DNA from: a virus
Strand: one strand, 5' to 3'
IMG/VR virus record: IMGVR_UViG_3300024348_000133
Coordinates: 1-35,500 of that record
DNA: 35,500 bases
Position numbers and translations under genes: made by a program. How positions within the stretch are numbered: position 1 is the stretch's first letter; each line of letters opens with the position of its first letter. The notes under the pieces are model-generated. The model did not search any database. It saw only the letters and a program-made list of their open reading frames with translations, and was not told where the DNA came from. Shown here one piece after another: positions 7,612 to 35,497 of the stretch.

Positions 7612-9411
7612 TTATGATAACCTGTAATTATCAAAATTGTTTTTATTATCTTCTTGGTAAGCTACAGTGTTTAGAGCTTCAATTATTTTGTCATTGTCAT
7701 AGGCTCTGTAGAAGTTATCCATTCCAAGACCCTTTTCTTTAACAAGCTTTCTTAATTTGTCAATATCAATTTGCTCACCAGGCTTCAACCCTAGTGAACC
7801 CCTGAACTCAGCAAAATTTCCATATGCCTCGTGAGGTCTATTTAAATACTCAAGTGTCCCGGGAGAATTCTTCTTCAAGAAAGTTTTATCTTTCTGATGG
7901 AATGCATTACCTAAAATACTAGTAAGCTTATCACTCATCACAGCATCTATACCTGAGGCATGAACTCTTTCATGAGTCTCAACAGGAACATTATCTTTAA
8001 AGCCCTCACCCATACGAATTACATCATTCACATAAGATGCTTTAGATCCTCTAGTGTTACCACCAACTTCTTTAGCAGTAGTCAGACCTTTTAATATCAT
8101 GTTGTCAATCTGCTCAGGCGTAACATTACCTTGCTCCATCATCCTCTGTCTAGTAATAGGATCATTGTATCTAGCCAAGAATGCCTCAGCAGGAGCATCT
8201 CTAACTGCAGAAATAAAGTCTACTTGCTCAGGGTTCTCTAATCCGAATACATTCTGAATATAACCTTGTCTTACATCAGGAACATGCATTGTCTCTCTAG
8301 GAACATGTTTAGCTTTGGACAAGTGTCCATATTTTGTTACATCAAGTGAATTGTCTGTTGGGATCTCTTCAGCTTTAGGACCTATTGAAGGTGCCTCTGT
8401 AGCTTCATATTCTTTCCCCTCTCCAGGGCCTGTTAATTTACCACCTTCTTTAAACACATTCATAGACTTACCGTCACTTCTAGTAAAAGTACCGTCAAGA
8501 CCAATGGAATTAGAAAAGATATAGTCATTCCATTTTGTCTCACCTTCCTCTACTAAGTTGGGCTTACCATTTGCTCCTATTCCCTGAGGTATTCCACCTA
8601 ATGGATTCTCTTCATGGGTACCACCATTTTCAAACCTATCTAATTCACCGCCATTAACATACATGTCATCATCTGACTTACCACCATACTTAAAATTATT
8701 AGGAGTCTGCAAACCTTGAGGTGGACTAAAGCCAGCTCTAGGATCTGATTGATCATTAGGCATATTGTTTGGAGTAACCAGTCCTTGAGGAGAATTGAAG
8801 TTACCATTAACTCTAGTATTATCTACTTGTTTTTTTGAGGCTTCGAAAGCAAGATTTCGAATAAACTCAGGACTATCACCCCTAACGCCCACATACTCAT
8901 CGCTAGGTATATTACTAGGATTAGTGTTCTGTTTCGAATAGTCTTCCATATACCCACTAAACTTCTTTGCATAATCTTCTGCTGTTAAATTAGTTTTACC
9001 TGGAACATTATATCCTTTATTTTTTAAATAAGAATCAACGCCACTCTTTCCTAAGAAATGTGTAAGTGCTGCTATAGATTCTTGAGGCAAGTCACTATTG
9101 TATCTAGCTTTAAGTGCTCTTGAATAAGTTGAATAATTAGGGAATCCTGCAAGCTTTCCATTAATGGCATTGTCCATTACCTTCTCCTGAAGTTCAGGAT
9201 TAGCTATAAATTCTCTTTGAGATTTGCCCTTTAGTAATGGGTCATTCTTAATATATCTCCATAGAAAATGATACTTCCCAGAAGCAGATGAGTTTGGGTT
9301 AGTCAAGTGTTTTCCTCCAGAAGATTCAAGCATGCCTATAGCATACTTGAAAGCTTCAGAGTTAAACTTCTTTTTATCATTATTTTTATTAGGCTTAGGA
9401 TCCTTTGACAT
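7612..9411 (-). CDS. Bifunctional virion protein: lysozyme/transglycosylase-like domain plus HExxH metallopeptidase-like domain
   Basis: The 599-residue protein appears to have three parts. Residues 15-160 look like a lysozyme-superfamily lytic transglycosylase: catalytic-type Glu29 in MLESSGG, then SASGKYHFLW (42-51) and an NPELQEKVMD helix. Residues 200-330 are a low-complexity linker with two SPQGL/PPQGL-TPNN copies, GG turns and a VEEGETKWNDYIFSN segment that I associate with crAss-like phage proteins. Residues 370-599 contain THERVHASG, with HExxH at 480-484. A downstream Glu (E528 in RPHEAYGNFAEF, or E535) could be the third zinc ligand. There is no signal peptide, so the protein is probably carried in the virion and used to open the cell wall at entry rather than for lysis. 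It has its own promoter immediately upstream. Both enzyme calls rest on motifs. Confidence 0.75.
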   Translation of the reverse strand: MSKDPKPNKNNDKKKFNSEAFKYAIGMLESSGGKHLTNPNSSASGKYHFLWRYIKNDPLLKGKSQREFIANPELQEKVMDNAINGKLAGFPNYSTYSRALKARYNSDLPQESIAALTHFLGKSGVDSYLKNKGYNVPGKTNLTAEDYAKKFSGYMEDYSKQNTNPSNIPSDEYVGVRGDSPEFIRNLAFEASKKQVDNTRVNGNFNSPQGLVTPNNMPNDQSDPRAGFSPPQGLQTPNNFKYGGKSDDDMYVNGGELDRFENGGTHEENPLGGIPQGIGANGKPNLVEEGETKWNDYIFSNSIGLDGTFTRSDGKSMNVFKEGGKLTGPGEGKEYEATEAPSIGPKAEEIPTDNSLDVTKYGHLSKAKHVPRETMHVPDVRQGYIQNVFGLENPEQVDFISAVRDAPAEAFLARYNDPITRQRMMEQGNVTPEQIDNMILKGLTTAKEVGGNTRGSKASYVNDVIRMGEGFKDNVPVETHERVHASGIDAVMSDKLTSILGNAFHQKDKTFLKKNSPGTLEYLNRPHEAYGNFAEFRGSLGLKPGEQIDIDKLRKLVKEKGLGMDNFYRAYDNDKIIEALNTVAYQEDNKNNFDNYRLS

Positions 9412-9416
9412 AATTG

Positions 9417-9447
9417 CAAATATAAGTTAATTAACATTTCTTGTCAA
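9417..9447 (-). promoter_or_regulatory. Bacteroidota-type promoter for the lysozyme/HExxH gene
   Basis: On the minus strand TTGACA (TTG at 9447-9445) is followed, 20 bases after its TTG, by TATATTTG (9424-9417), a perfect match to the TAnnTTTG -7 box. The box ends five bases before the ATG at 9411, so the transcript should begin at or within a few bases of the start codon. It lies in the 58-base gap after the muzzle gene, which is where a fresh promoter for the entry-protein genes would be useful. Confidence 0.65.
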
Positions 9448-15428: not shown

Positions 15429-16538
15429 TTAATAATATTTTCCACCAAACCAGAATCTTCCGGATTCATCAGGAACTATTTGTGTTATATGACAATTGCC
15501 ATAATCATCTATCATGTTTATTGCAAATCCATTTGACCAACTCTCCTTCATAGCTCTTGTTGCGTATCCAAATACTTTAGATTTAAGATTAGCGCAAGTA
15601 CCTATATTGTAAGCAGCGTTAGGTCCTTCTCTATACATTTGAACTCTGTGAGTGTGTACATAAGCACAACTCTTTCCGAATGTATCTAAATGTTTCTTAG
15701 CGTTATGGATATTAAAATATATCCCGTGAAAGATCTGGAAGTCATTTCCTAATGTGATATAGTCTTGGCTCCATTTATCTTTTACATTATACCCTCTACG
15801 CCAAAGCTTAAGTGCATCTTCTGGAGAATCTAATGGAGTTTTTGCATTATCCATTACTGACATCCACCTGTTGTACCTGTCTTCATGATTACCATACAGA
15901 AAAGTTTTCCAACATCCTCTAGGAAGATGTCTATCAAAGTCATCTAATAGTTCATTTCCTACAGCATACTCATCATCAAGTGTTAGTCCTGGAACAGCTG
16001 TAAATCTACCTCTATCATGAGATGATAATGGATTCAAGTCTAAGAAGTCACCCATTAAGTGAAATCCTTTTATTAGTTCAGGATAGTCTTTTATTAATTC
16101 AATGATACTTCTGTGCAATTGAACATTATGAAATGGTACGTGATTACACCCAAGCATAATATGCATTCCAACTTGATCAGATATTTCTGGAACATGAAAT
16201 GCTTTCAAAGCTTTCTTTCTTTTTAATATAGATGCACCGGCAGTAACGTCAACACTTTTATCAATTAGTTTAAGACCTAGTTTCCCAGCAATCTTTGAGA
16301 GTTCAGCAATAGCTTCTGCATTTTCTGATGCTACGCCCACTTTTTCTGGTTGTGAACCAACTCTCATGTGATTCTTAAATTCCTTTTTTAATTCCTTCTT
16401 GACTTTTTTAATGTCTTCCAGATTAAATATGCGTCCATTAAATTTTTTACTTAATGCTCCTTGAATTCCCTTATTACCCCAATTCAAATAACTACTCTTC
16501 TTCCTCAAAAAGCTTTTAATAATTTCAGTACTATCCAT
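15429..16538 (-). CDS. Calcineurin-like metallophosphoesterase with helical N-terminal extension (369 aa)
   Basis: The start is placed at the ATG at 16538, which follows AATAAAACAAAAT. The longer frame begins with TTG inside the promoter and adds eight residues. Numbering is from this ATG. Residues 1-115 are Lys-rich and helical, possibly nucleic-acid binding. The phosphoesterase core follows: LGCNHVPFHN (129-138), MGDFLDL with Asp164 and Asp167, YGNHEDR (215-221), IFHGIYF, and VHTHR near residue 287. These match motifs I-V of the dinuclear metallophosphoesterase fold. The exception is motif I (D-x-H), where Cys131 replaces the metal-binding Asp. The gene lies among ring genes and has its own promoter, so the product may be a virion component or assembly factor acting on a phosphoester or nucleotide. 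The substrate is unknown. Confidence 0.85.
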   Translation of the reverse strand: MDSTEIIKSFLRKKSSYLNWGNKGIQGALSKKFNGRIFNLEDIKKVKKELKKEFKNHMRVGSQPEKVGVASENAEAIAELSKIAGKLGLKLIDKSVDVTAGASILKRKKALKAFHVPEISDQVGMHIMLGCNHVPFHNVQLHRSIIELIKDYPELIKGFHLMGDFLDLNPLSSHDRGRFTAVPGLTLDDEYAVGNELLDDFDRHLPRGCWKTFLYGNHEDRYNRWMSVMDNAKTPLDSPEDALKLWRRGYNVKDKWSQDYITLGNDFQIFHGIYFNIHNAKKHLDTFGKSCAYVHTHRVQMYREGPNAAYNIGTCANLKSKVFGYATRAMKESWSNGFAINMIDDYGNCHITQIVPDESGRFWFGGKYY

Positions 16539-16559
16539 ATTTTGTTTTATTAATTTTCT

Positions 16560-16590
16560 CAAAAATAAGAAAAAAATTCTTATATGTCAA
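16560..16590 (-). promoter_or_regulatory. Bacteroidota-type promoter for the metallophosphoesterase/tail operon
   Basis: On the minus strand TTGACA (TTG at 16590-16588) is followed, 20 bases after its TTG, by TATTTTTG (16567-16560), matching TAnnTTTG exactly. The ATG at 16538 is 21 bases beyond the -7 box, leaving a short A-rich leader. A 7-bp dyad (ATAAGAA/TTCTTAT) lies between the two boxes and could be an operator. Two TATAGC cores lie farther upstream (about 16594-16621), but not at the spacing seen in the other promoter class of this window. Confidence 0.65.
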
Positions 16591-22069: not shown

Positions 22070-22105
22070 TTTTATTCTTATTTAAAATTCTTCTCTCTCT
22101 ATTTG

Positions 22106-22129
22106 TGAAGGTTATTATAGATACCTTCA
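22106..22129 (-). promoter_or_regulatory. Dyad upstream of the 288-aa head gene
   Basis: TGAAGGT (22106-22112) and ACCTTCA (22123-22129) form a perfect 7-bp inverted repeat around ten AT-rich bases, 37 bases before the ATG at 22069. Within it the minus strand reads TATCTATAATA, loosely like the 13-base element of the late promoters. It could be an operator or a short leader hairpin. No perfect -7 box accompanies it. Confidence 0.3.
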
Positions 22130-22146
22130 AACTATATTACTTAAGA

Positions 22147-22186
22147 GTAACAACTACCCTCGTTGAACACACGAGGGTAAAGTTAC
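22147..22186 (-). terminator. Hairpin directly after the major capsid gene
   Basis: TACCCTCGT (22155-22163) pairs with ACGAGGGTA (22171-22179) over a seven-base loop. An outer GTAAC/GTTAC pair (22147-22151 and 22182-22186) extends the structure past a small internal loop. It begins 11 bases after the capsid stop codon. No T tract follows, so partial termination or mRNA 3'-end protection is as likely as full termination. Confidence 0.65.
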
Positions 22187-22197
22187 AATTTTATCAA

Positions 22198-23697
22198 TTA
22201 CGCTAACACGTAAGGTATGATACTTGCAGTTCTACTAGGGTCGTAACATACAACTCCTAATTGAGAAAACTTAGTGATAGTTCCACTATCTTCTAAAGTA
22301 CCCATGTTTCCATTATTTACAGCTCCTGTAAATGGATTTCTAAAGCCCCATTGGTAACCTCTGATTTCTTCCATTCCTTTAACAGCAACTTTTTGAATGT
22401 TTGGACTTTCTGTAGTACCCATGTAAAAGATGTCATATCTGTAAGATTCAGCAACACCTGATTTACCTGGAATAGTAATAGTGTTTCTTACTTTGTCATC
22501 ATAAAAGTCATCAACTTCTAATTTAACGCAAACACCGTTTGGAGCTAAATACTCTACAAACTGGAATCCAGCAGATAATGAATTACTATGTAATGGAGAT
22601 CCAACACTTTTGACTGTAGCTGGATTAGTTCCAGGAGTACTCATATTTGCTGACCAACCAGAAGTTGTTTTTAATACAGCTTTATGAAATTCAGCAGCAC
22701 CTCTTTCACCAGTTCTTAACATAAACATTCTTTGATCCATACCTAATTTACCTTCAGATAATCCAAAAAGGATTTCTTCTAACAACTCGATAGAGAAGTC
22801 GTTGTAATAGAATGTATTAGATTGCTCCATTTGCTCACGTACACCTGAACCAATTCTAATCTTACGACCAGATACGTCAGTGTTATGGTATTGACCATCA
22901 GAAGTTCTGTTAGTCTTTCCATACATTAAGAACTTGTTCTTGTATTCAGAAAATTCTTGCTCAACCAACCAGTCTTCGTATAATGCTAAAGCACCAAATA
23001 CTTTTTTATTACCAGACTTATCAACAACAGGAATACCCATTACAACTTGCTTGTTAGCAGCATCACCAGGTAATTTGTGGTCAATTCTAATAGTAGTTAA
23101 TTCACCTCTCATAGAAACTGGAGTAACTCTGCGAATACCACCTACTTCTCTAGAAAGACCTTTTCCTACTGGAGCAAACTCTTGCTTGAATTTCTTACCA
23201 GAAACTAACTCTTCACCAGGAATACCTGATCTGTCAGATCCAGCGATTTCACAAGTATACACATACTGAGAACCTGATGCATAACCATCATTCAATACTC
23301 TAATTGGGTATACTTCATTTTTATCACCTACGATGATTTCACCCTTGAAGAATGCATTCTCATCGAATGTTAATTCAAACTCTTGTCCACCTTCACCAAC
23401 ATTGCTGTCAGAATCAGATACGGTTGAGCCTTGAAAAGCTGCTTCTACTAAAGTGTAATTTCTTCTAGAACTACCAATAAGTTCCCAATAGAACTCGTTG
23501 TCATTTTCTACTTGTTTTGTATCAAACTTGCCTAGCAAACTCTCTAAGGATTTACCCCTATTGATTGCTAACAATTTGATCATGGCATCATTAATCTTTG
23601 TTGGAGCAGTCTTCCAAATAGCACCTAAGGTGTTTTCTGGATTGATCATCCCGTTAAAAGATTTTGCGTCAGTTACTTGGAACCTTCCTAATTGCAT
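22198..23697 (-). CDS. Major capsid protein, HK97-fold crAss-like type (499 aa)
   Basis: The 499-residue soluble protein begins QLGRFQVTDAKSFNGMIN. It carries the segments I associate with crAss-like capsid proteins: KSLESLLGKFDTK (about residues 50-62), EFYWELIGSSRRNYTLVEA (about 68-86), a Gly/Glu-rich loop, then GMPVVD/KVFGALALYEDWLVEQEF-type middle segments and a C-terminal YDPSRTASIIPYVLA. Length matches the roughly 490-500 residues usual for that group. It follows a scaffold-like gene (28-base gap) and is followed by a hairpin, the arrangement expected for the most abundant virion protein. The fold is inferred from family resemblance, not modelled. Confidence 0.85.
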   Translation of the reverse strand: MQLGRFQVTDAKSFNGMINPENTLGAIWKTAPTKINDAMIKLLAINRGKSLESLLGKFDTKQVENDNEFYWELIGSSRRNYTLVEAAFQGSTVSDSDSNVGEGGQEFELTFDENAFFKGEIIVGDKNEVYPIRVLNDGYASGSQYVYTCEIAGSDRSGIPGEELVSGKKFKQEFAPVGKGLSREVGGIRRVTPVSMRGELTTIRIDHKLPGDAANKQVVMGIPVVDKSGNKKVFGALALYEDWLVEQEFSEYKNKFLMYGKTNRTSDGQYHNTDVSGRKIRIGSGVREQMEQSNTFYYNDFSIELLEEILFGLSEGKLGMDQRMFMLRTGERGAAEFHKAVLKTTSGWSANMSTPGTNPATVKSVGSPLHSNSLSAGFQFVEYLAPNGVCVKLEVDDFYDDKVRNTITIPGKSGVAESYRYDIFYMGTTESPNIQKVAVKGMEEIRGYQWGFRNPFTGAVNNGNMGTLEDSGTITKFSQLGVVCYDPSRTASIIPYVLA

Positions 23698-23725: not shown

Positions 23726-24862
23726 TTATTCTATCTCTAAATCCTTAAGGTCTGATAACTTGAAAGTTGAATTTGCATCAGGAACATCAGTGTTGATTGC
23801 TCCAGTCTCTGTAAAGTTAGCACCTCTTAATAAATTTTCTATATTATTGGATATCTTGGTTTCAGCTTTGTTTGTAAACACACTAAAATCTTTCAATCCT
23901 TTTGTTAGGTAAAAAAATGCTTCTAATTTTATCCTAGATCCAACTGGGTCAGATTTCTGATAAGACACAAATGCATTGTCCTTATTACCTACATCAGTAG
24001 TAATCCCCTTATACAATTCATCTTTCTGTAAATCTGTTAATTGTATTCCAGGCAATACTTCTGGTGTCTTGTTGATGTAGTCTTTAATATCATTTAAGCT
24101 TTTAGCCTCTTTAGCTTTAGCTGTCTCTATGATATTATCTAAAGACTTCTTCTCATGAGCAATGATATTCTTTACTGCAAATTCTGCATCTTCAATATCA
24201 GTTCCAGCATCTACACTTCTTTGTGCAAGAGTCTGGGCTCTTTCAGGATTATAGCCTTTATCTATAAAGTCTTGTGCAATTGCTTGCATCCTGAAGTTTA
24301 AATTCTTTTCATCACTTAGAAACTCTGGAGTTACACTCTCTAGTTTACTAATTGTGCTGAGCTTCTCAGAAACTTCTGTAGGTTCTGCGCCCACCTTGAC
24401 AGCTTCTTTAATTCTCTTTTGCTCGTCATCAAATCTTGATTCTACTTCTTTTCGAATTGCTTCATTTAGAGCAGTCAAATCTTTAATGTCCTCAATATTT
24501 TCAAGTCCAGGCAAAACCCCTTTGGATTTAAATTGGGCAGCTAAGTTAGAATAAAGCTGTTCAGTCTCATTCAGTTTTGGAGAGGAAGAATTACTACCCT
24601 TATCCTTTTCTGAAGTTTTACCTGTCTGAACTTGATTATCTTCTTTCTTATTAGCTACGCTCTCTTGACCAGATTTATCATCTTGATCATCACCAATAGT
24701 GTTATTTTTATCACCTTCTGCTCCTGTACCCTGATCATCATCACCAGTTCCAGCATTAGCAGTGTCATCATTGACTCCCTCTTTTACAGCCTCTGCAGCT
24801 CCATCCTCATTGAATAGTTGCACAGACTCAAAGTTCAAGTCTTCTAAATTTAATTCTTCCAT
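23726..24862 (-). CDS. Putative capsid scaffolding protein (378 aa)
   Basis: Residues 1-100 are extremely acidic and low-complexity (GDDDQGTGAEGD, then DDQDDKSGQ). The rest is helical and coiled-coil-prone (ALNEAIRKEVESRFDDEQK, IAHEKKSLDNIIETAKAKE), with short helices and a hydrophobic-acidic end (FKLSDLKDLEIE). It immediately precedes the capsid gene. Acidic N-terminus, coiled-coil middle and this position are the usual signature of phage scaffolds, which guide procapsid assembly. No protease motif is seen. It has the best promoter in the window (24889-24937), so scaffold and capsid probably form one highly expressed unit. Confidence 0.75.
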   Translation of the reverse strand: MEELNLEDLNFESVQLFNEDGAAEAVKEGVNDDTANAGTGDDDQGTGAEGDKNNTIGDDQDDKSGQESVANKKEDNQVQTGKTSEKDKGSNSSSPKLNETEQLYSNLAAQFKSKGVLPGLENIEDIKDLTALNEAIRKEVESRFDDEQKRIKEAVKVGAEPTEVSEKLSTISKLESVTPEFLSDEKNLNFRMQAIAQDFIDKGYNPERAQTLAQRSVDAGTDIEDAEFAVKNIIAHEKKSLDNIIETAKAKEAKSLNDIKDYINKTPEVLPGIQLTDLQKDELYKGITTDVGNKDNAFVSYQKSDPVGSRIKLEAFFYLTKGLKDFSVFTNKAETKISNNIENLLRGANFTETGAINTDVPDANSTFKLSDLKDLEIE

Positions 24863-24888
24863 CTTTAATATTTAAAATTCTCCTTGTA

Positions 24889-24937
24889 CAAATCTAATAC
24901 AAAAAGGTAATTTTGTCCAATGCCTTTTATAGCTAAA
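24889..24937 (-). promoter_or_regulatory. Late promoter for scaffold/capsid with 13-base upstream element
   Basis: Reading the minus strand, the element TTTAGCTATAAAA (24937-24925) is followed by TTG (24920-24918), then 21 bases, then the -7 box TAGATTTG (24896-24889). There are exactly 28 bases between the element and the -7 box. The element is an inverted repeat (TTTTA/TAAAA around GCTA) and would lie near -41 to -53. The leader to the ATG at 24862 is about 20 bases. Confidence 0.7.
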
Positions 24938-24945
24938 AGATGTAA

Positions 24946-25455
24946 CTACTGACCCACACTAGGTTTTTCAACAGCTTTAAATATTTTCTTTACTTTTTCT
25001 GGAAGCAATCCTATTAGTTTTTTTAATAGATTATTTCCACTAACAGCCTCCATGTTTTCAAATATACTATATACTTCAATTACACACGCTACAGCAATTA
25101 CTAATTCAACAATATTCCTCTTTTGATTAATAACTTCAAAATCTCCTATGTGTAAAACATAGTGATCAAGTATTGCAAAAATTATTACACCAATACCATA
25201 TTCATATGTTTTTCTCCAGGTAGCCCTAAGTCCTGATGATTTAAGATTCTTCCAAAATTCTTTTTTAAATGGGTTTGCTGATATCTTTTTAATATAAAAG
25301 CTCTTCCTTATACCAGTTACCATGTCAAAAAAAATAATAACAAAAAGAGCAAGAAGAATTGATTTCATATCCATGATCAAGGTTAAAAGGGGTGAAGAAG
25401 CAAGCAAAGTCAACTTAACTCCAGACATCTTCTTGAAAAAAAGTAATGCATTCAT
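24946..25455 (-). CDS. Phage holin (169 aa)
   Basis: I choose the ATG at 25455 (MNALLFFKKMSG); the longer frame would begin with TTG three codons earlier, within the promoter. Three hydrophobic segments are visible at about residues 32-47 (ILLALFVIIFFDMVTG), 86-100 and 114-130 (LVIAVACVIEVYSIFE). DMVTGIRKS after the first segment and EVYSIFENME after the third are typical of the holin_4 / toxin-secretion holin family (PF05105-like). The C-terminus is basic and cytoplasmic in character. The product should form inner-membrane lesions at lysis. It lies apart from the spanin and DUF5675 genes, next to another small membrane protein, and carries its own late-type promoter. Confidence 0.8.
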   Translation of the reverse strand: MNALLFFKKMSGVKLTLLASSPLLTLIMDMKSILLALFVIIFFDMVTGIRKSFYIKKISANPFKKEFWKNLKSSGLRATWRKTYEYGIGVIIFAILDHYVLHIGDFEVINQKRNIVELVIAVACVIEVYSIFENMEAVSGNNLLKKLIGLLPEKVKKIFKAVEKPSVGQ

Positions 25456-25460
25456 AGTGT

Positions 25461-25509
25461 ACAATATAATATATAACGTGTGATTTTAATGACTTCTTTT
25501 ATAGCTAAA
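25461..25509 (-). promoter_or_regulatory. Late promoter for holin with the same 13-base element
   Basis: TTTAGCTATAAAA (25509-25497) lies exactly 28 bases before TATATTGT (25468-25461), a degenerate TAnnTTTG box with one T missing. The TAG inside the element is the stop codon of the upstream membrane-protein gene. The box ends five bases before the ATG at 25455, so the transcript would be almost leaderless. Element and spacing are conserved even though the -7 box is weaker. Confidence 0.55.
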
Positions 25510-25792
25510 TTATATACCCGAACATTACAGCAATAATTGGAATAGCACTTGCTATGAAATCCCACCATTCTGGATTTCCTTTACCTTGCCAGTAATCTAA
25601 TATAATTTCTTTCCCACCTACTATGGCCAATCCTAAGAAGCCTCCTGCAAGAAAAAAGAAGTGTATGCCAAACGCTGCATCTAGTATTAAACCCAAAAGA
25701 ATTAATGGGTATCCTATTATCATTCCAAATAAGACATGATCCTTTTTATCATCCGGTATATCATTTATTATTTCTTTTATTGTTTCTATCAT
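25505..25792 (-). CDS. Small three-segment membrane protein next to holin (95 aa)
   Basis: Three hydrophobic segments (about residues 20-38, 43-60 and 80-95) follow a charged N-terminus. The arrangement DKKDH (15-19), GGKEIILD (59-66) and an NPEWWD segment (73-78) resembles small membrane proteins or lipoproteins of the DUF2279/YfiM-like kind found in bacteria and phages. This likeness is weak and function is unknown. Its stop codon lies inside the promoter element of the holin gene, so the two genes are physically linked. An accessory lysis role is a guess from position. Confidence 0.6.
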   Translation of the reverse strand: MIETIKEIINDIPDDKKDHVLFGMIIGYPLILLGLILDAAFGIHFFFLAGGFLGLAIVGGKEIILDYWQGKGNPEWWDFIASAIPIIAVMFGYII

Positions 25793-25816
25793 TTTATTTA
25801 GTTTTTAAAATTATTA

Positions 25817-28800
25817 TTATTGACCTCCAGAAATTATCCAAGTGTCAGTTGAAACTTTTACTAATGTTATCATTGTGCGATCACCACTATAAATGTTAAC
25901 ACCTGATTGACTATTCAGAAGAGTAACTCCACTTCCTGCCACAACTGCTACATCATAAGTGTCACTAACACTTGTAATTCTAACAACAGAAGCATGATCT
26001 GAATCACTATCTATTTCAATCGTAATATTAGATGATGTTGGGTCAGCAATAACTAGATTTTCACCTGCAATAATTGTGTAGTTTGTTGTTGCACGATAAC
26101 TATCATCACCATTTGGATCTGCAATGTTATTTTGTTTAGAAACTATATATTCATCAGCTATAATGGCACCATTAGCAGTAATATTTTGATCAGTATTAAT
26201 TCCGGTAGACTTAATTGATGTAGTTGAACTTATGGTTGTATGATCAGATTTGCCTACACTGTAAAAGTTTACTCCTGTTTCAGTATATGTTGCAATAATG
26301 TTATAAGAGTCTGAACCACCATTACCACCAATATTTAATACAGCTGCACCAGGTGAATTTGGAACTATCTCATTTAATACTGAAGCATTACTAGCGTTAT
26401 CAAATACTATATCTGATCCTGACCCCGTAGAGATAATAGTTAGGTCATCAAAAAGACCAGACTCTCCCTGTATTTCCCCAGCGGCAAAAATATCTGTACT
26501 ACCAAATATTCTACCAGTAGCAAATATTGAATAATCTGATGAATCATCTACTCCAACATTTAACCTATAGCCATTGTAGGTTGTCCCTAATGATGTAGAT
26601 CCATTTATAATTACATCTGATGTACTAGTTATTGAATCGTCTGAAGCACTAAAAGCTAACATCTGAGTATTAGTTCCAGCTCCTAAGTACATGGTTGATG
26701 TTGTTTGACCATCAAATAAAAAAGAACTAGTTCCAGTCTTTATTAAGTTTAAAGATAATGCTCCAGCCTCTCCAGTATCCTTGTCTGAAATAATCATAGA
26801 CCCTATGCCCCCTGTATCTCCTACAATTTGTAACTTTGCCGTAGGACTGGACGTCCCAATACCTACTTTGCCTGATGAGTCAATACGCATTCTTTCAGTA
26901 GTAGTGTTAGATGTAGCTGTGTGAAAACTTAGATTAGTCCTGTCACCATAACCACCTTCTCTATTAGAAGCTATCATTGACTCTGCACTAAATACCGGAT
27001 TTAATTTAATTGAAACCCCTTCATCACCGCCAGAACCTGTGTTCTCTAAATAAATTAAGTTAGCTGTAGATGCTGCTGATGAATCTGATATATGTAATTT
27101 AGCACTAGGATTAGTTGTTCCAATCCCTACGTTACCATTGTAGTTTACACGCATTCTTTCAGAAGCGTTAGTAGTAATAGTTATATAACCAGCCGAGCCA
27201 CTTGAGTCTAATATGAAATTCTGACTACCTGCTGTTTTTAAAGAGGTAAAGTTTCCAGCTGATTGAATGTTAAAGTATTTGCCAGACGTATCACTGTTCA
27301 TTCTAAACTCAGTTTCTGCGACTGCGTTTGTACCAATCTCCAGTTCTTTGGTTGGACTACTATTTCCTATACCTACGTTACCTCCGTTTAAGTATGAGTT
27401 TCCAGAACTATCTAAATTAACATTTAATGTTCCTGCTGCATTGAATATTCTTGCTCTACCATCACCGCCACCATCTTCTAATATAGAAAAAATTGCATCA
27501 GTATCTGAAGAATTTGTAACTTGAAAAGGCGTTGAATTGTTTGATGAAGATTTAATATCCAGTTTAGCACTAGGACTAGTCGTCCCAATCCCTACATTTT
27601 TAGCGTTGCTTCCAACTCTCATAACTTCTTGTCCCCCCTCTGATAAAATTATCCAGTCGTTGTTGCCTACGGTAAGATTACCATCACCCGGGAACTGTAT
27701 ATTACTGCCATTTTCCCCAACTAAAATACCGTTAAATTTTGACCTTGCTCCACTTACCTCTAATTTCTCACTAGGAGTAGTTGTTCCAATTCCAACGTTT
27801 AGGTTACTAATAATACGAATAGCCTCTCCGTTATCAGCCTCAAAAATAATTTCATCTAAAGACGTATCCCCTATTATTAGGTTATCTGTTGAACTTTCTA
27901 CTTTTAGTATATCACTATTAAAACCATCCCCTCTTTTCATTCTAAGAATTGGGTCTGTTCCAGATATAAGAATTTCTGATTCAACGTCTAATTTAGCTTC
28001 GGGAGTAGCAGTTCCTATACCTACGTTTCCTGAAGAAGTGATACGCATAGCGTCTGTAGTAGTAGTGCCATCGCTTAGCCTAAACTGTATAACTCCATTA
28101 GCTGTATTGTTGTTAGATAAAAATTGTAGGTTTCCAGCTTGCTGTCTTATATACCCAAAAGTACCTGTATTATCGGAGTCTTCTAAAACTATTTTTGGGT
28201 TAGAATTTACTATATTCAATATAGAACTAGGACTAGTTGTTCCAATACCAACGTTACCGTTTAAATCAACAGCTAGTTTATCACTACCTTCATTCGCTAA
28301 CAGCATTAAGTAATCTGTAGATGTATTAGAAAGAGTGTTTATATACAATGCAGATTCTGGAATATGAGCGTATGATGCGTCGTCGTTTAATGATAAAGCC
28401 CCATATCTATGAAGTTGTAACACACCGCCTCCATTTACTGTTTGCAGTGAAGTTTTTAAATGCCCTTTTATATCGAAACCACCCGTTCCATCAATTTGCG
28501 TAATACTAGCCGTATTCGCAGATATTATTTGTATTTTTTTAGTAGCAGATTTATAATTAGTTAAATCGTAGTAAGTATCTCCGTTAGATTCAATTCTAGC
28601 ATCAAGAACAGGTTGTAGTGATCCAGAAGCACTTGTAGTAACTTTAAACAAGGACCCGTTTGGTATTGACTCTTCTATGTGCAGCTTTGAACTAGGACTA
28701 GTAGTACCAATACCAACGTTACCTGTACTTTCTTGTACATATAAGTTGGTTGTGGTGCCATCTCTATCTTTAACTATTAAATTTCCACTAACAACTACAA

Positions 28801-30016
28801 CCGGGACTACTAAGTCCATGCTAACACTTAATGGAGTCTTGTCATTTTCGTCTTTTATTATAAAACTTCCACCACCATCTACTCCATTTTTTTCTACAAT
28901 TAAATTACCTTGATTTGTAATACTGTAATCTTGTGTAAATCCTGCGGTATTTTTAAGTGTTATACTTGGAAAATTTGCTTCTATATATACATTACCTCTT
29001 ACATCTAACTTCTCACTAGGATTAGTTGTTCCAATACCTAGGTTACCACCATTTAGGTATGAATTTCCATCAGCTCTAAGCCACGCTTTTATAACACCTG
29101 CTTGCTGCATGTACAAATCACTAGGTCTTAACCTGCTTTTATTAGCTCCATCGTTTACTATTAAGTTACCTCCGTAAACCTCTAGTTTATCACTAGGACT
29201 AGTAGTCCCGACACCTAATGTGTCTGAAACATAAATATCTCCAGATAATATTAATTCACCGTTTTGACTTAATGTTAATATATCAACATCATCAAATGTT
29301 ACATTGATTATATCTTCAGGACTAACTTTATAGAAGTCTACACTTAATACTTCTGATGAAAAATTCTCAGTTACTGTTGCATGATCATCTAGAGTTACTT
29401 CTAAAATTTTTCTAACCTCACCACCAACCTGCACAAGATCACCTGCTTCCAATTCAGTTGTGAATGAGGTTCCGCTTATACCATATAATCCTTCATCATT
29501 TGCATATGTATCTACAGTTCCAGTTAATTGAGTCAACTGAGATGCATCTACTGAATTATCTAAATCTAATGAATTAAATGTTACGTCATCAGTGATGTTT
29601 AAGTCTTGGTCAAAAGGATTACCATAAACATCCATTGGATTGAACTCTAATGTATCTGTTGCAGAAGCTGTACCTATATATCTTGTTATTATGTCACTAT
29701 CATCTGGCTCAGTTGTAGTAATTTCACCATCAGTAGTTGAGACATAATATCTCGCGCCAACAGTTAATCCAGATGATTCTATTGTTCCTTGTACATAGAA
29801 TAATCCTTCTTCATCAGCTACAAGAGCCTCCTTGGCTATTCTTAATTCTGTACCCGAAGTATCTATTGATGAAGAATTAGCCTTCCAGTATTTACCATCA
29901 GTATTAAGATAGCACAAATCACCTGCAATCAAGTCTTCACCTGCAATTGCACTGTTGACTATACTATAGTATGAATTATCTTCTGAGTCGTAAACATTTA
30001 TTCTAAATACTGCCAT
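25817..30016 (-). CDS. Long fibre protein with ten GIGTTSP-type repeats (1399 aa)
   Basis: Residues 1-135 form a beta domain (AGDLCYLNTDGKYWKANSS, then GLTVGARYYVSTTDG and IGTASATDTLEF) like phage decoration or fibre base modules. Around residues 165-265 is a QLTGTV module shared with the 616- and 337-codon fibres. From about 265 to 1060 come ten copies of a GNVGIGTTSPSxKLxI motif, each starting a 60-155 residue beta segment, typical of trimeric fibres. The last 90 residues form a tip module (SNITIEIDSDSD, GSGVTLL, TWIISGG) also found in the smaller fibres. There is no SDxRLKxNI chaperone end (peptidase S74), which often follows such repeats. Position before the capsid genes suggests a head fibre, as in crAss001, though a tail fibre is possible. 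Confidence 0.8.
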   Translation of the reverse strand: MAVFRINVYDSEDNSYYSIVNSAIAGEDLIAGDLCYLNTDGKYWKANSSSIDTSGTELRIAKEALVADEEGLFYVQGTIESSGLTVGARYYVSTTDGEITTTEPDDSDIITRYIGTASATDTLEFNPMDVYGNPFDQDLNITDDVTFNSLDLDNSVDASQLTQLTGTVDTYANDEGLYGISGTSFTTELEAGDLVQVGGEVRKILEVTLDDHATVTENFSSEVLSVDFYKVSPEDIINVTFDDVDILTLSQNGELILSGDIYVSDTLGVGTTSPSDKLEVYGGNLIVNDGANKSRLRPSDLYMQQAGVIKAWLRADGNSYLNGGNLGIGTTNPSEKLDVRGNVYIEANFPSITLKNTAGFTQDYSITNQGNLIVEKNGVDGGGSFIIKDENDKTPLSVSMDLVVPVVVVSGNLIVKDRDGTTTNLYVQESTGNVGIGTTSPSSKLHIEESIPNGSLFKVTTSASGSLQPVLDARIESNGDTYYDLTNYKSATKKIQIISANTASITQIDGTGGFDIKGHLKTSLQTVNGGGVLQLHRYGALSLNDDASYAHIPESALYINTLSNTSTDYLMLLANEGSDKLAVDLNGNVGIGTTSPSSILNIVNSNPKIVLEDSDNTGTFGYIRQQAGNLQFLSNNNTANGVIQFRLSDGTTTTDAMRITSSGNVGIGTATPEAKLDVESEILISGTDPILRMKRGDGFNSDILKVESSTDNLIIGDTSLDEIIFEADNGEAIRIISNLNVGIGTTTPSEKLEVSGARSKFNGILVGENGSNIQFPGDGNLTVGNNDWIILSEGGQEVMRVGSNAKNVGIGTTSPSAKLDIKSSSNNSTPFQVTNSSDTDAIFSILEDGGGDGRARIFNAAGTLNVNLDSSGNSYLNGGNVGIGNSSPTKELEIGTNAVAETEFRMNSDTSGKYFNIQSAGNFTSLKTAGSQNFILDSSGSAGYITITTNASERMRVNYNGNVGIGTTNPSAKLHISDSSAASTANLIYLENTGSGGDEGVSIKLNPVFSAESMIASNREGGYGDRTNLSFHTATSNTTTERMRIDSSGKVGIGTSSPTAKLQIVGDTGGIGSMIISDKDTGEAGALSLNLIKTGTSSFLFDGQTTSTMYLGAGTNTQMLAFSASDDSITSTSDVIINGSTSLGTTYNGYRLNVGVDDSSDYSIFATGRIFGSTDIFAAGEIQGESGLFDDLTIISTGSGSDIVFDNASNASVLNEIVPNSPGAAVLNIGGNGGSDSYNIIATYTETGVNFYSVGKSDHTTISSTTSIKSTGINTDQNITANGAIIADEYIVSKQNNIADPNGDDSYRATTNYTIIAGENLVIADPTSSNITIEIDSDSDHASVVRITSVSDTYDVAVVAGSGVTLLNSQSGVNIYSGDRTMITLVKVSTDTWIISGGQ
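26840..29220 (-). repeat. Ten degenerate coding repeats (GIGTTSP motif)
   Basis: The DNA coding GIGTTxPSxKL recurs near 29210, 29030, 28705, 28240, 28015, 27795, 27590, 27370, 27125 and 26865. Spacing is irregular, 180-470 bases. Copies share cores such as CCTAGTGCTAA and GGAACAACTAG but differ elsewhere, so these are old protein repeats, not a CRISPR array or fresh tandem repeat. Confidence 0.8.
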
Positions 30017-30027
30017 TTTTTAATTTT

Positions 30028-31107
30028 TTAATCTGACCATTCTCCACTAGCATCTTTAACTTGGTAGTTCATTTCAAACTCACCTAAAGCATCATCTACA
30101 GTGTAGTATATTAATAATCCGCTGTCAACATCTTCAAGAGTTATCTCTTGACTAAATGATACAGTTTCTCCATCTAATTGTATCTCTCCCTGAGATGGCA
30201 ATGATGTAAATCTTATTGACTCAGCTGAATCTCCGTCTAAATCATAATATCCTGCAGCTGTAATTAAGTCATATCTTGTAAAGACATAGTCTTCATTCAG
30301 CACTACATATATGTCTGTCTCATCATTTATTATTGGAGCAGATCCAACATATGCCTCAACAGCCAGTGTAAGAACCCCTCCGGAAGTGAACTCGTAACTA
30401 CCCTGGTCAGATACTGAAAATGTAATATCCTCTGAGGTTGCATCATCTTGTTCCTCATCTGTAACATACGTTAGTAATCCATTATTTATATCTTTAATAG
30501 TAACTGATTCATTTAATCCTAGGCCATCTCCATCATAAAGAAATGATCCATAAAAAGGAACTGATGTTATTTTAACTGCAAATGCATCGTCATCCTCGGG
30601 GTCAGAATAAACAGGAGTAGTTTCAGTCGTAAAGTTTTCTGGAGTAAATGTGTATGTCTCAGGGTTACTCAAGTTAATTGTTATAACTCCAACTGAATCT
30701 GGTGGCTCATTCTCATTACTTGCAGCAGTAAATATTAAATCATTTGCTGTGTTATTGTATGATAAAGAATTTTCATCTGCAACCAGGAATGTGCAGTTTG
30801 AATCTGTATATCCAGCAGTATCACTTTCAGCAACATAAATAAATAATCCTAATGCTATATCAGTTGCTAGTATCTCATCTCCTGCAGATATATTAACAGA
30901 ACTTAGTTGAAGAGTCCCTTTGGAAGGAAGCGTTACTATCTTTGTAGAGTAAAAAGTATTACCTACATACTCAGGATTGGTGTCAGTAGTAAGGTCTGCT
31001 ACTGTAAAAGTGTGAGTACCCTCGAAGTCTACTTTAAAAGCATTCCATCCACTTTGAGTTGGAGCAGAGCTAGATTGAGCAGAATAAGATAAAGTAAGTA
31101 TGGCCAT
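30028..31107 (-). CDS. Three-repeat cadherin/Ig-like virion protein (359 aa)
   Basis: Three beta-rich repeats span about residues 30-130, 135-250 and 258-359. Conserved points are a THTFTVADL, TYTFTPENF or DYVFTRYDL strand; a TDTNPEY, TETTPVYSDPEDDD or YYDLDGDSAE loop; a LPSKGTLQL, VPFYGSFLY or LPSQGEIQLDG turn; and a GLFIYVAES, GLLTYVTDE or GLLIYYTVD strand. These are hallmarks of bacterial cadherin-like/Big_9-type domains with Asp-rich, probably calcium-binding loops. The second repeat is close to those of the 241-residue protein at 17016-17741. With the long fibre that follows 11 bases later it is likely a surface adhesion or fibre-attachment component. There is no signal peptide. Confidence 0.75.
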   Translation of the reverse strand: MAILTLSYSAQSSSAPTQSGWNAFKVDFEGTHTFTVADLTTDTNPEYVGNTFYSTKIVTLPSKGTLQLSSVNISAGDEILATDIALGLFIYVAESDTAGYTDSNCTFLVADENSLSYNNTANDLIFTAASNENEPPDSVGVITINLSNPETYTFTPENFTTETTPVYSDPEDDDAFAVKITSVPFYGSFLYDGDGLGLNESVTIKDINNGLLTYVTDEEQDDATSEDITFSVSDQGSYEFTSGGVLTLAVEAYVGSAPIINDETDIYVVLNEDYVFTRYDLITAAGYYDLDGDSAESIRFTSLPSQGEIQLDGETVSFSQEITLEDVDSGLLIYYTVDDALGEFEMNYQVKDASGEWSD

Positions 31108-31111
31108 GTAT

Positions 31112-31160
31112 CAAAAATATAAATAAAACACCTAAAAATGGGTTCTTTTTTATAGCTAAA
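31112..31160 (-). promoter_or_regulatory. Late promoter for cadherin-like and long-fibre genes
   Basis: TTTAGCTATAAAA (31160-31148) is exactly 28 bases before TATTTTTG (31119-31112), a perfect TAnnTTTG box. No TTG lies at the usual -33 distance. The TAG inside the element ends the spanin gene. The box ends four bases before the ATG at 31107, predicting a leaderless or nearly leaderless mRNA. Confidence 0.6.
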
Positions 31161-31626
31161 AAGGTAGTATTGATTTAATCTTGTCTTTAAGTAAGAACAA
31201 ATTCAATGCCAATGATATTATTAACGCTAACCAGACCCTCCAATTAGATCTGTATCTTATAATTTCTTTCTCAATTGTTTGTACATCTTTATCTCTCCTT
31301 ATATCTTTTACTACAATATCACTTACAACAATTGAGTCTTGCTCGTAATCAACAACAATTCTTCCTTCCTCAGATTTTAATTTAATTGTAGTCTTTGGGG
31401 TTTTTAATACTTGATTAAAGTTAGCCAGGTTTCCTAGACTATCACATGGTTCCTCTATAATAAGGGTATCTCTTATTGACTTAATTACTTCAACATTCTT
31501 TTTGACAATGACCGTATCTGTAACAACCCTATCTCTATATTCGACAGTAGATTTTTTACTGACACAAGCAGTAAAAAAAAATACCATTAAGAATATATAT
31601 GATTTATTTCCTAGTGCGAATTTCAT
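31156..31626 (-). CDS. Predicted unimolecular spanin (lipoprotein plus C-terminal membrane anchor, 156 aa)
   Basis: The N-terminus (MKFALGNKSYIFLMVFFFTAC) is a short lipoprotein signal with lipobox F-T-A-C at Cys21. Residues 22-128 are a charged periplasmic-type region rich in Val/Ile/Asp/Lys. A membrane segment (about 131-145, VWLALIISLALNLFLL) and a short basic tail end the protein. Outer-membrane lipid anchor plus inner-membrane helix in one chain is the topology of u-spanins (such as T1 gp11), which fuse the two membranes in the last step of lysis. The start overlaps the stop of the DUF5675 gene by one base (TAATG), forming a small lysis pair. The function is inferred from topology. Confidence 0.7.
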   Translation of the reverse strand: MKFALGNKSYIFLMVFFFTACVSKKSTVEYRDRVVTDTVIVKKNVEVIKSIRDTLIIEEPCDSLGNLANFNQVLKTPKTTIKLKSEEGRIVVDYEQDSIVVSDIVVKDIRRDKDVQTIEKEIIRYRSNWRVWLALIISLALNLFLLKDKIKSILPF

Positions 31627-32070: not shown

Positions 32071-32538
32071 CTACGGGGTGTATGGGGTTGCTCCATCTAT
32101 AAGCCATTCTCCATTTCCAAGATTGTACAATTTAGCAGTTCTAAATTCTTCATTTGTAGAAGGTAGTGATATATAGCTATACTCAGGTGTTAATGCAACT
32201 CCATCGCCAGCCTCAAATAGCACCCAACTAGAACTTCCGCTACCTAACATTACTTCTACAATAGGCGTGTCAATATCTGATCCAATTGTAAGATAGAAAG
32301 GCTCTGTAAGTGAATTTGCATAAACTATATTTGCTCCATCTTCAAGGTCAGCAGCTGCTACATCTCCAATTAATTGAAGTGTATTTGATGAGTCAGAACT
32401 ACCACTCACTTTGTCACCACCCTTACTGTCATATGCGAATACTTTACCCGTATCAGATGATATGTAAACTCCACCACCAGTCATTAAGCCTGGAGCATTT
32501 TCTTCTTTTCCTGAATATATATTATTTATTAATTTCAT
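32071..32538 (-). CDS. Minimal fibre protein: anchor plus tip (155 aa)
   Basis: The start is the ATG at 32538, where the protein begins MKLINNIYSG like its two paralogues. The longer frame adds 37 residues read from the previous gene. Residues 1-45 are the shared anchor (GGGVYISSDTGKVFAYDS). Residues 60-155 are the shared tip (FYLTIGSD, then FEAGDGVALTP and GEWLIDGA). No middle shaft is present, unlike the 337- and 616-residue copies. It is probably a short head or tail fibre or a cap subunit. The first 40 bases around its start are identical to those of the neighbouring gene. Confidence 0.75.
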   Translation of the reverse strand: MKLINNIYSGKEENAPGLMTGGGVYISSDTGKVFAYDSKGGDKVSGSSDSSNTLQLIGDVAAADLEDGANIVYANSLTEPFYLTIGSDIDTPIVEVMLGSGSSSWVLFEAGDGVALTPEYSYISLPSTNEEFRTAKLYNLGNGEWLIDGATPYTP

Positions 32539-32552
32539 TTTTTTTATTATTT
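32513..32552 (-). repeat. Fibre-gene start repeat, copy 1
   Basis: A 40-base stretch covering an A-rich leader, the ATG and the first eight codons is identical to 33562-33601, and similar to 35453-35497. It marks the common 5' end of the tandem fibre genes and gives a site for homologous exchange. Confidence 0.85.
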
Positions 32553-32573
32553 TTATTTTTTTTAAATTGCTAA

Positions 32574-33587
32574 TTATACTCCAGTATAAAGGTCTGTAAT
32601 CCACCAAGCCTGAAAGGTTGTTGGGTCTTTTATTAATGTACATGACCAAAGTTCTTTGTCAGCTGTACCTTTTTTTGGTAATTTTCCACTACCTCCATAT
32701 TTAATAGTGACTCCATCTCCAGCCTCAAAAGTAACATCCCCAGTCTCTGACCTATTAATAACTTTGATTTCACTTACATTTGTAGTTGTTTCAATTGTTA
32801 AAACAGCATCAGATGCTCCTTGATAAATGATATAATCAACATCTGCAACAATAGAGTCATTGGAATTAAGACCTTGTGCTCTAGTAGCACCTTCTTTATT
32901 TGCAACAATCTCATTTGTTACATATTCCGTTGTTGCTACCTTCGTAGAATTATCTCCAGCGGTTTGAGTTGTCGCAGATATACCTGGACTTAAACTTCCA
33001 ACATGTTCTCCAGCAAGATAATTAGCATTTACTCTACCTGCAGAAACTCTATCAGAACTTACGTTTCCGGTTAAAACTACATCTCCTCTAGGTGAGATTC
33101 TAAATAAAGGTTCAGCTTCATTTGACCCGTATTTTAATTCTAATAAAGAACCATTTTCTAATGGATTTAATAATTTTCCAAAAGTAACACCACTAAATCC
33201 CGTTTCTTGACCACTTGCAACAAATAACATAGTATCCATCGGTATTGATAAAACTTGATAAGCAGTTCCTTCTACTACAATATAGTCATTAAAAGCTAGT
33301 TCTGTTTTAAATTTAGTTCCAACACCAATTATTTGCTGAGTTGTTGCACTTACAGTCCCAGTCAATTGTCCTATCTCAAATTCATGATATATTGTCAATG
33401 GTGCTTTAGATAAACTTAATTTACCAAAAGTTGCGCTATTTTTATCTATATAAGTAGCAGCTTTACCAGTTCCACTGTCATAAGAAAAAACTTTACCTGT
33501 GTCTGAAGATAAGTATAAACCTCCGCTAAAAAGTGTTTTTGGAGCATCTTTTTCTAATCCAGAATATATATTATTTATTAATTTCAT
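32574..33587 (-). CDS. Medium fibre protein, modular (337 aa)
   Basis: Residues 1-45 are the shared anchor (MKLINNIYSGLEKDAP, SSDTGKVFSYDS). About residues 70-130 form the QLTGTV module (IGVGTKFKTELAFNDYIVVEG), which is also in the 616- and 1399-residue fibres. About residues 195-225 contain ATTQTAGDNSTKVATTEYV, a segment frequent in phage fibres. The last 90 residues are the tip (TIETTTNVSEIKVIN, then FEAGDGVTIKYGG) with a unique end. The gene lies between its longer and shorter paralogues with gaps of 40 and 35 bases. It is likely trimeric; whether it sits on head or tail is not settled. Confidence 0.75.
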   Translation of the reverse strand: MKLINNIYSGLEKDAPKTLFSGGLYLSSDTGKVFSYDSGTGKAATYIDKNSATFGKLSLSKAPLTIYHEFEIGQLTGTVSATTQQIIGVGTKFKTELAFNDYIVVEGTAYQVLSIPMDTMLFVASGQETGFSGVTFGKLLNPLENGSLLELKYGSNEAEPLFRISPRGDVVLTGNVSSDRVSAGRVNANYLAGEHVGSLSPGISATTQTAGDNSTKVATTEYVTNEIVANKEGATRAQGLNSNDSIVADVDYIIYQGASDAVLTIETTTNVSEIKVINRSETGDVTFEAGDGVTIKYGGSGKLPKKGTADKELWSCTLIKDPTTFQAWWITDLYTGV

Positions 33588-33601
33588 TTTTTTTATTATT
33601 T
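33562..33601 (-). repeat. Fibre-gene start repeat, copy 2
   Basis: Identical over 40 bases to 32513-32552, covering leader, ATG (33587) and the first codons of the medium fibre gene. Confidence 0.85.
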
Positions 33602-35478: not shown

Positions 35479-35497
35479 TTTTTTTTTTTTTTTTTTT
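35453..35497 (-). repeat. Fibre-gene start repeat, diverged copy 3, with 20-base A tract
   Basis: This matches the other two start repeats with a few substitutions, but the leader is replaced by an uninterrupted run of 20 A on the minus strand (35497-35478) that ends in the A of the ATG. Long homopolymers are prone to slippage. Nothing further can be said about the last three bases of the window. Confidence 0.7.

Follow-up and report, generated by a model that had tools for sequence, protein, structure and literature searches.

The stretch of DNA analysed here, positions 1 to 35,500 of the IMG/VR virus record IMGVR_UViG_3300024348_000133 (the whole 35,500 nucleotides are referred to as the window), is part of a crAss-like phage (Crassvirales), as its capsid protein and the gene order of its virion module indicate. 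On the minus strand, the 13-base element TTTAGCTATAAAA occurs in exactly three exact copies, located at 24925–24937, 25497–25509 and 31148–31160, and each of them stands 28 bases upstream of an octamer of the Bacteroidota −7 type, TAnnTTTG. The major capsid protein matches PHROG 11589 (E 4.5e-103) and shows about 50% identity to that of crAss001 (tblastn). Among the 27 window proteins, 17 match one of 51 chosen phi14:2 proteins, and 16 of these matches are collinear. A record of 68.5 kb (G001) represents the same phage, with 9 mismatches in 27,396 compared bases, and supplies the RNA polymerase genes and the early and middle genes from regions beyond the window. In the 90.6-kb record G005, one strand carries the late genes (88–68340) and nearly all early and middle genes lie on the opposite strand, an assignment drawn from gene content.

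The first copy of the element precedes the scaffold/capsid unit. Its −7 box, TAGATTTG, locates at 24889–24896 and is followed by a scaffold-like gene (23726–24862, minus strand, 378 aa) directly 5′ of the major capsid gene (22198–23697, minus strand), which lies downstream in the same unit. The label ‘scaffold’ rests on this position; the protein is 25% identical to phi14:2 g092, annotated as ‘putative structural protein’, and no Pfam or PHROG family was found for it. The second copy precedes the holin gene (24946–25455, minus strand, 169 aa; PF05105 Phage_holin_4_1, E 8.8e-8), with the box TATATTGT at 25461–25468, one T short of the consensus. Behind the third copy and its box TATTTTTG at 31112–31119, the first gene encodes a 359-aa virion structural protein with a cadherin-like domain (30028–31107, minus strand; PF16184, E 9.1e-12; PHROG 22884), and the second encodes the 1399-aa long tail fibre (25817–30016, minus strand; PHROG 9942 and 18345). 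Judged by gene content, all three units are late. The TAG within the element doubles as the stop codon of the preceding open reading frame (ORF) at the holin site (ORF 25505–25792) and at the tail/fibre site (ORF 31156–31626). Two of the three boxes match TAnnTTTG exactly. The three identical copies, the distance of exactly 28 bases and the missing T of the second box had been described in a first-pass annotation of the sequence, and all were verified.

That annotation also held that constant spacing over unrelated sequence is hard to obtain by chance, and dinucleotide shuffles of the minus strand (n = 200) bear this out. Some 13-mer appeared in triplicate in 9 shuffles, and in none did a triplicate 13-mer have TAnnTT at one fixed spacing (15–44) behind all copies. 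When up to three mismatches are allowed, the window holds 44 matches to the element against 43.3 expected, which is no enrichment. Degenerate matches are at chance level, and the signal therefore lies only in the near-exact word with its spacing. The near relative L006 keeps the deviant holin box TATATTGT at spacing 28 despite a different spacer.

A search with the capsid protein gave 46 loci, of which 45, near-identical records included, were examined before the scaffold gene. AGCTAT is present at the orthologous place in 38 of them; the spacing is 28 in 36 of these, with single cases of 29 and 30. Two of the remaining loci have AGCAATAA at 29, three are without the element (L041, L044 and L047; an AGCAAT match scored for L044 was discounted because it is not before the real box), and two are not judgeable. 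The consensus of the element in relatives is TTTAGCTATAATA. A scan of related phages, which had been put forward as a check, finds the composite TTTAGCTATAATA-N28-TAnnTTTG before the same late genes, namely scaffold, holin, portal and a tail/fibre structural gene. Across 24 hand-chosen sites AGCTATA is invariant, as are T, A, T and T of the box, and the spacers are variable; this set omits the variants TATAGCAATAATA before the G015 holin gene and those of G016.

The distance between element and box shows a peak in these phages, hereafter clade A. In 14 relatives plus the window (one of the 14, G001, being the window's own phage), elements with up to two mismatches pair with an exact TAnnTTTG 16 times at spacing 28 and at most twice at any other spacing (10–49). 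Counting AGCTATAW in 17 records of clade A, among which several are near-duplicates, gives 19 pairs at 28, one at 29 and 8 at all other spacings of 10–59 combined; with AGCTATAW in the opposite orientation there is no peak in these records, with two or fewer at any spacing. G016 and G018 show spacings of 28–30, and G020 and G023 show no spacing peak. The first-pass annotation had named copies of the element without promoter spacing as the case that would refute it. Among 23 exact 13-mers in 25 records, 15 are followed by an exact box at 28, four by a box at 28 that deviates in one or two bases, one by a near box at 29 and one, from the second clade described below, by an exact box at 43. The refuting case does arise, for two of the 23, both in G020, which lies outside both clades; the other 21 are spaced. 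A matrix scan of six long records (score ≥19, spacing 28–30; three of the six partial, and many sites had helped to build the matrix) returned 16 matches; 15 of them lie ahead of gene starts on the late strand, one falls inside the portal gene and none is in the early and middle part covered.

We further scanned databases for the composite. Among IMG/VR contigs, TTTAGCTATAAWA-N28-TAnnTTTG is found in 46 stretches with 53 sites, which reduce to 33 distinct 49-mers in 13 clusters. All 46 stretches carry ORFs resembling ones from 8 crAss-like reference records. Of the 53 sites, 52 lie 4–54 bases upstream of an ORF, the last being near a contig end. The genes behind these sites encode portal, a structural protein related to phi14:2 g080, holin, scaffold and, once, a 198-aa protein. 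In the genomes of 84,980 prokaryote species, the N28 composite gives 35 scattered stretches, with an ORF start within 80 bases in five. The sole match before a homologous late gene is L257 (CAJYBF010000016.1), in which 6 of 8 ORFs are crAss-like and whose placement in a Mollicutes metagenome-assembled genome is most likely a binning error. We notice by eye a terminator-like hairpin, such as CCCTTTTT-gaaa-AAAAAGGG, inside the 28-base spacer of L193, L194, L198, L204 and L225; before the g080-like gene, the end of one unit thus overlaps the start of the next.

The −33 part of the promoter is usually missing. In the window, a TTG stands 21 bases before the box (TTG-N21) at the scaffold site, and there is no −33 TTG at the holin or tail/fibre sites. 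Among the 33 distinct IMG/VR element promoters, only six have TTG 19–21 bases before the box, compared with all ten chosen late promoters of phi14:2 (4) and crAss001 (6), which were taken from a promoter list with rows outside the virion module left out. Conversely, AGCNATA is found within 60 bases upstream of none of those ten. The element trades places with the −33 box and seems, from this distribution, to stand in for it. Ordinary predicted promoters without the element also exist in the window: TTG-N20-TATTTTTG (16560–16590, minus strand) before the phosphoesterase gene 15429–16562, and TTG-N20-TATATTTG (9417–9447, minus strand) before the gene 7612–9411. With these before 16562 and 9411, the phage uses both promoter classes in its virion module. 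By eye, TTGAC-type promoters occur at the same two genes in several relatives.

The element recurs with a different geometry in a second group, clade B. In G025–G028, whose capsid proteins are about 52% identical to that of the window, the same element, AGC[T/A/G]ATA[A/T], is located before portal, scaffold and other late genes. With spacings of 24–48 examined, 11 of the 12 listed sites before ORFs are 42–45 bases from the box, and element–box pairs number 13 at 42–45 vs 6 at all other spacings of 10–59. In G026 the scaffold promoter is more widely spaced, at about 56 by eye. At G028:C1:9110, and at 6091 in L122, we notice one clade B element 24 and 52 bases (52 by eye) before two successive boxes, both distances falling outside 42–45. 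A database scan at 42–45 yielded at least 120 stretches; among the 80 examined, an ORF start lies within 60 bases at 13 sites overall, and four sites are in stretches with crAss-like ORFs, two of them before an ORF (G028 and G025, both among the records described above). In a quick capsid tree, on which we assigned the promoter labels, clade A and its variants form one group (support 96) and clade B another (100), which joins the group containing crAss001 with a support of only 86. Either the element is ancient and some lines have lost it, or its acquisition or relocation has happened repeatedly.

Several details of the first-pass description do not survive these comparisons. It had read the element as an inverted repeat (TTTTA/TAAAA around GCTA) at which an activator dimer could touch RNA polymerase; however, the base before the 13-mer varies, and among 24 sites, position 12 holds T in 18 and A in 4. 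As the inverted repeat is not conserved, the dimer is unsupported too. Nor is a spacing of 28 universal, since it is 28–30 in clade A and 42–45 in clade B. A proposed weaker form of the element, TATCTATAATA before the gene at 22069, is absent before the orthologous gene in the seven other records whose upstream stretch was usable (G005, G014, G015, G016, G018, G020 and G023; G009, cut at an inner start, was left out). In the window, two stem-loops are predicted in the gap that separates the capsid gene from the following one (22105–22180, minus strand; z −4.4), and the loop of one of them contains TATCTATAATA. By eye, hairpins with other sequences are apparently kept after the capsid gene in some relatives. 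What stands of the late promoter class is that it is restricted to certain phage lineages, lies before late genes and is built on the host −7 box.

Promoters of Flavobacterium johnsoniae show T-12, A-11, T-8, T-7, T-6 and G-5, a hardly visible −33 and A/T-rich positions at −18 and −28 (PMC6847099). By this numbering, the clade A element spans −53 to −41, in agreement with the position first proposed for it, with the middle of its AGCT core near −48.5, and the clade B element lies between −70 and −55. The position in clade A resembles that of activators touching sigma and polymerase directly, and the position in clade B resembles a more distant activator class with looser distance.

Taken together, the sequence pattern is that of a genuine class of late promoters, specific to its lineage and based on the −7 box of the host. 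We consider it likely that the element is the site of a trans-acting activator, most likely encoded by the phage, which acts on the RNA polymerase of the Bacteroidota host. The activator would be produced in the early or middle phase, bind TTTAGCTATAA(T/A)A and recruit or activate host RNA polymerase at the late promoters. TAnnTTTG, the usual −7 box, would form the core; most of these promoters lack a −33 box, and the element, located just upstream of where sigma would read −33, would replace it. An activator made in the early or middle phase would allow the portal, tail/fibre, holin and scaffold/capsid units to be switched on jointly, late in infection. What the sequences show directly is the element with its spacing and conservation, its confinement to the late strand and to crAss-like lineages, a −7 box of the host type and, in most cases, no −33 box; that these promoters are active, that they are activated and not repressed, that they act late, and which protein is responsible, we infer. 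For crAss001 (PMC8375218) and for the order (PMC10136315), it is described as likely that host RNA polymerase transcribes the late genes.

Some observations weigh against a phage activator at this element. When the box is allowed one mismatch, the 14 relatives plus the window give 14 pairs at spacing 28 vs 11 at 38 and 10 at 48. A control scan of IMG/VR at spacing 23 also returned 26 stretches with 17 distinct sequences, 14 of which are variants of one recurrent stretch; a count by itself therefore proves little, and the weight lies on how varied the spacers and genes are. Between 28 and 42–45 the change is 14–17 bases, which does not correspond to complete turns of the helix, and any simple model must explain this off-turn difference. 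Iterated hidden Markov model (HMM) searches found no gene family restricted to element-bearing genomes. They covered the G005 ORFs outside the virion module and the ORFs of up to 420 aa of G028, G025, G018 and G015, the second set being limited to families represented in three or more of 5 clade A records and in one or more of 3 clade B records. A match to PF08299, the family of the best candidate activator (see below), is absent from the three long element-bearing records G016, G027 and G028 and from several partial ones.

The failure to find a gene exclusive to element-bearing phages would also be expected if a host transcription factor bound the element and the phage exploited it, so that the class would be host-given and not phage-specific. 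The slight variation of the element between lineages could likewise come with different hosts. We nevertheless think this improbable: with the N28 spacing, only the crAss-like L257 precedes a homologous late gene among the genomes of 84,980 species, and the exact composite in IMG/VR comes only from crAss-like stretches, although a host factor should serve other phages too. A host-wide promoter class is unsupported by the prokaryote genome scan. The element might instead be the operator of a phage repressor that silences the late genes early, with the −7 box alone driving transcription later. Its closeness to the core promoter and the symmetry of the innermost TAGCTA would suit such a role, which we regard as quite improbable, as the strict spacing and the lost −33 TTG are more in line with activation. 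Sites bound by repressors usually overlap with the core promoter and do not depend on a set distance.

A further possibility is that the element is a contact of the RNA polymerase alpha subunit, similar to an A/T-rich UP element, and that no extra protein takes part. The position from −53 to −41 and the A/T richness agree with this; however, what is conserved is a defined word that has GC inside it (38 of the 45 scaffold promoters carry AGCTAT), and the A/T-rich motifs of F. johnsoniae lie at −18 and −28, with no such word mentioned within the 50 bases examined in that species (PMC6847099), which makes a UP-like contact highly unlikely in our view. The coincidence of TAG with the stop of the preceding ORF at two of the three window sites raises the question of chance or a by-product of coding sequence. 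At the distinct IMG/VR sites, overlap with the stop of an open frame of at least 60 codons is found in four of 33 and is missing in the other 29, and chance is contradicted by the spacing peak and the placement before late genes, so that this explanation has a negligible probability. A phage-encoded activator remains the account that we favor.

Regarding the protein that would fill this role, we analysed 25 of the 49 early and middle ORFs of G001. The sole DNA-binding family at E < 0.001 is a stand-alone protein resembling DnaA domain IV (G001:62926–63435, equal to L053:3226–3735 on the minus strand, in the early part of the phage; PF08299, E 1e-6), whose 29.1 bits are just below the curated cut-off of 31.5. 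The family is found in 7 of 46 records, three above the cut-off, and all seven bear the element. A search for relatives of this protein gave three loci, all 100% identical. Given element-bearing records without a match and genes in different places, the link is weak. The reverse complement of the element, TTATAGCTAAA, begins with TTAT, which we take to be the TTAT of the DnaA box. We speculate, as an unlikely possibility, that a domesticated DnaA domain IV, an early or middle stand-alone helix-turn-helix protein, is the late activator and that its operator, centred at about −48, has shifted in the second clade to somewhere around −63 to −66. The same operator would then be kept, and the geometry of activation would have changed.

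A second candidate, a 128-aa protein, occurs in most crAss-like records, with or without the element, and is named a VpsT-like regulator in crAss001. Its predicted model, a confident one (pLDDT 86.8), has three viral matches with E < 0.001, the best being ‘VpsT-like putative transcriptional regulator’ (1.6e-8), and nothing with E < 0.001 in the PDB (best 1.4). Because it occurs in phages without the element, it was rejected as the cause of the restriction of the element. A search for sigma region 4 in 14 records gave no match to PF08281 and one sub-cut-off match to PF04545, in crAss001, a search which strongly diverged sigma-like proteins could escape. A phage sigma factor was rejected, with no match above cut-off in the 14 records and none in element-bearing phages.

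We also notice features around the predicted transcript starts. The predicted start of holin transcription falls on or beside its ATG (25455), and with a box-to-start distance of 4–5 bases, leaderless mRNAs are predicted for the cadherin-domain gene (31107) and the holin gene (25455); in F. johnsoniae, leaders are longer than 10 nt in 87% of predicted transcripts (PMC6847099). The leader of the scaffold-like gene contains the word AAGGAGAATT (24876–24885, minus strand) at the predicted mRNA 5′ end, conserved in many relatives and about 17 bases from the ATG, which is beyond the usual Shine-Dalgarno distance. An AGGAG-like word occurs up to 45 bases after the box in 15 of the 33 distinct IMG/VR promoters. 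Elsewhere in the window, the 13-mer ATTGGAACAACTA occurs four times at 27112–29035 within the gene for the 1399-aa tail fibre, which points to internal repeats. Three genes have the start region AAAAAAAATGAAATTAAT in common (32540–32545, 33589–33594 and 35480–35485, minus strand), and for the gene 32071–32649, an in-frame ATG at 32538 may be the start instead of the TTG at 32649.

In crAss-like phages, a late operator would give a direct handle on the question of how late genes pass from the RNA polymerase of the virion to that of the host. An operator of fixed geometry could serve as a reporter, as a bait for the activator and as a predictor of late units in uncultured relatives. The two spacings, together with the trade between −33 and element, may offer a natural experiment on how activators meet the divergent RNA polymerase of Bacteroidota. 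In the titles and abstract openings of the literature on crAss-like promoters, no such element is described, the phi14:2 transcription study of Drobysheva et al. standing outside this scope. Within PMC10136315 and PMC7886860, a search for the term ‘promoter’ gave no match, and in PMC8375218 the promoter passages among 12 of 22 places concern host capsule loci.

Compared with known systems, the predicted promoters share the −7 box with the Flavobacterium housekeeping promoter (−33 TTTG/−7 TAnnTTTG; PMC6847099), and A/T-rich positions near −18 and −28 are also seen in the aligned spacers of the element promoters. Unlike that promoter, most have no −33 box (TTG at 19–21 in 6 of 33), and a specific upstream word is present. 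As with the late promoters of T4 (PMC2988020), a late class is marked by a phage-specific signal. In T4, however, sigma is replaced and a sliding clamp activates transcription, whereas here the host −7 box is kept. The late sigma of T4 is gp55, and a phage sigma factor of the gp55/phiEco32 type finds no counterpart in the 14 records (PF08281 in 0 of 14; PF04545 in 1 of 14, below cut-off). To our knowledge, the late promoters of N4 have no comparable upstream word. N4 resembles crAss-like phages in that a virion-packaged RNA polymerase serves the early genes and other polymerases follow (PMC4496689).

Close parallels come from phage Mu. At its middle promoter Pm, the Mor element is 16 bp long, is centred at −43.5 and contains two inverted repeats of 5 bp (PMC4390567), and as in that system, the proposed activator site lies just upstream of a promoter read by host RNA polymerase with its main sigma. 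The Mor site serves one middle promoter; here, an asymmetric 13-base word occurs at up to five late promoters per genome and is combined with the Bacteroidota −7 box. A specific operator at a constant upstream distance, typical of Mor and C, is found within each clade, and the distance differs between clades A and B. Similar to Mu C, which acts on the late promoters lys, I, P and mom (PMC4461284), one phage activator on host RNA polymerase would switch on several late units, although the sequence and the host phylum are different. An activator site upstream of a host-sigma promoter is thus of a kind known from phage Mu, and what appears to be new is the lineage, the sequence, the type of host promoter, the trade with −33 and the change of spacing.

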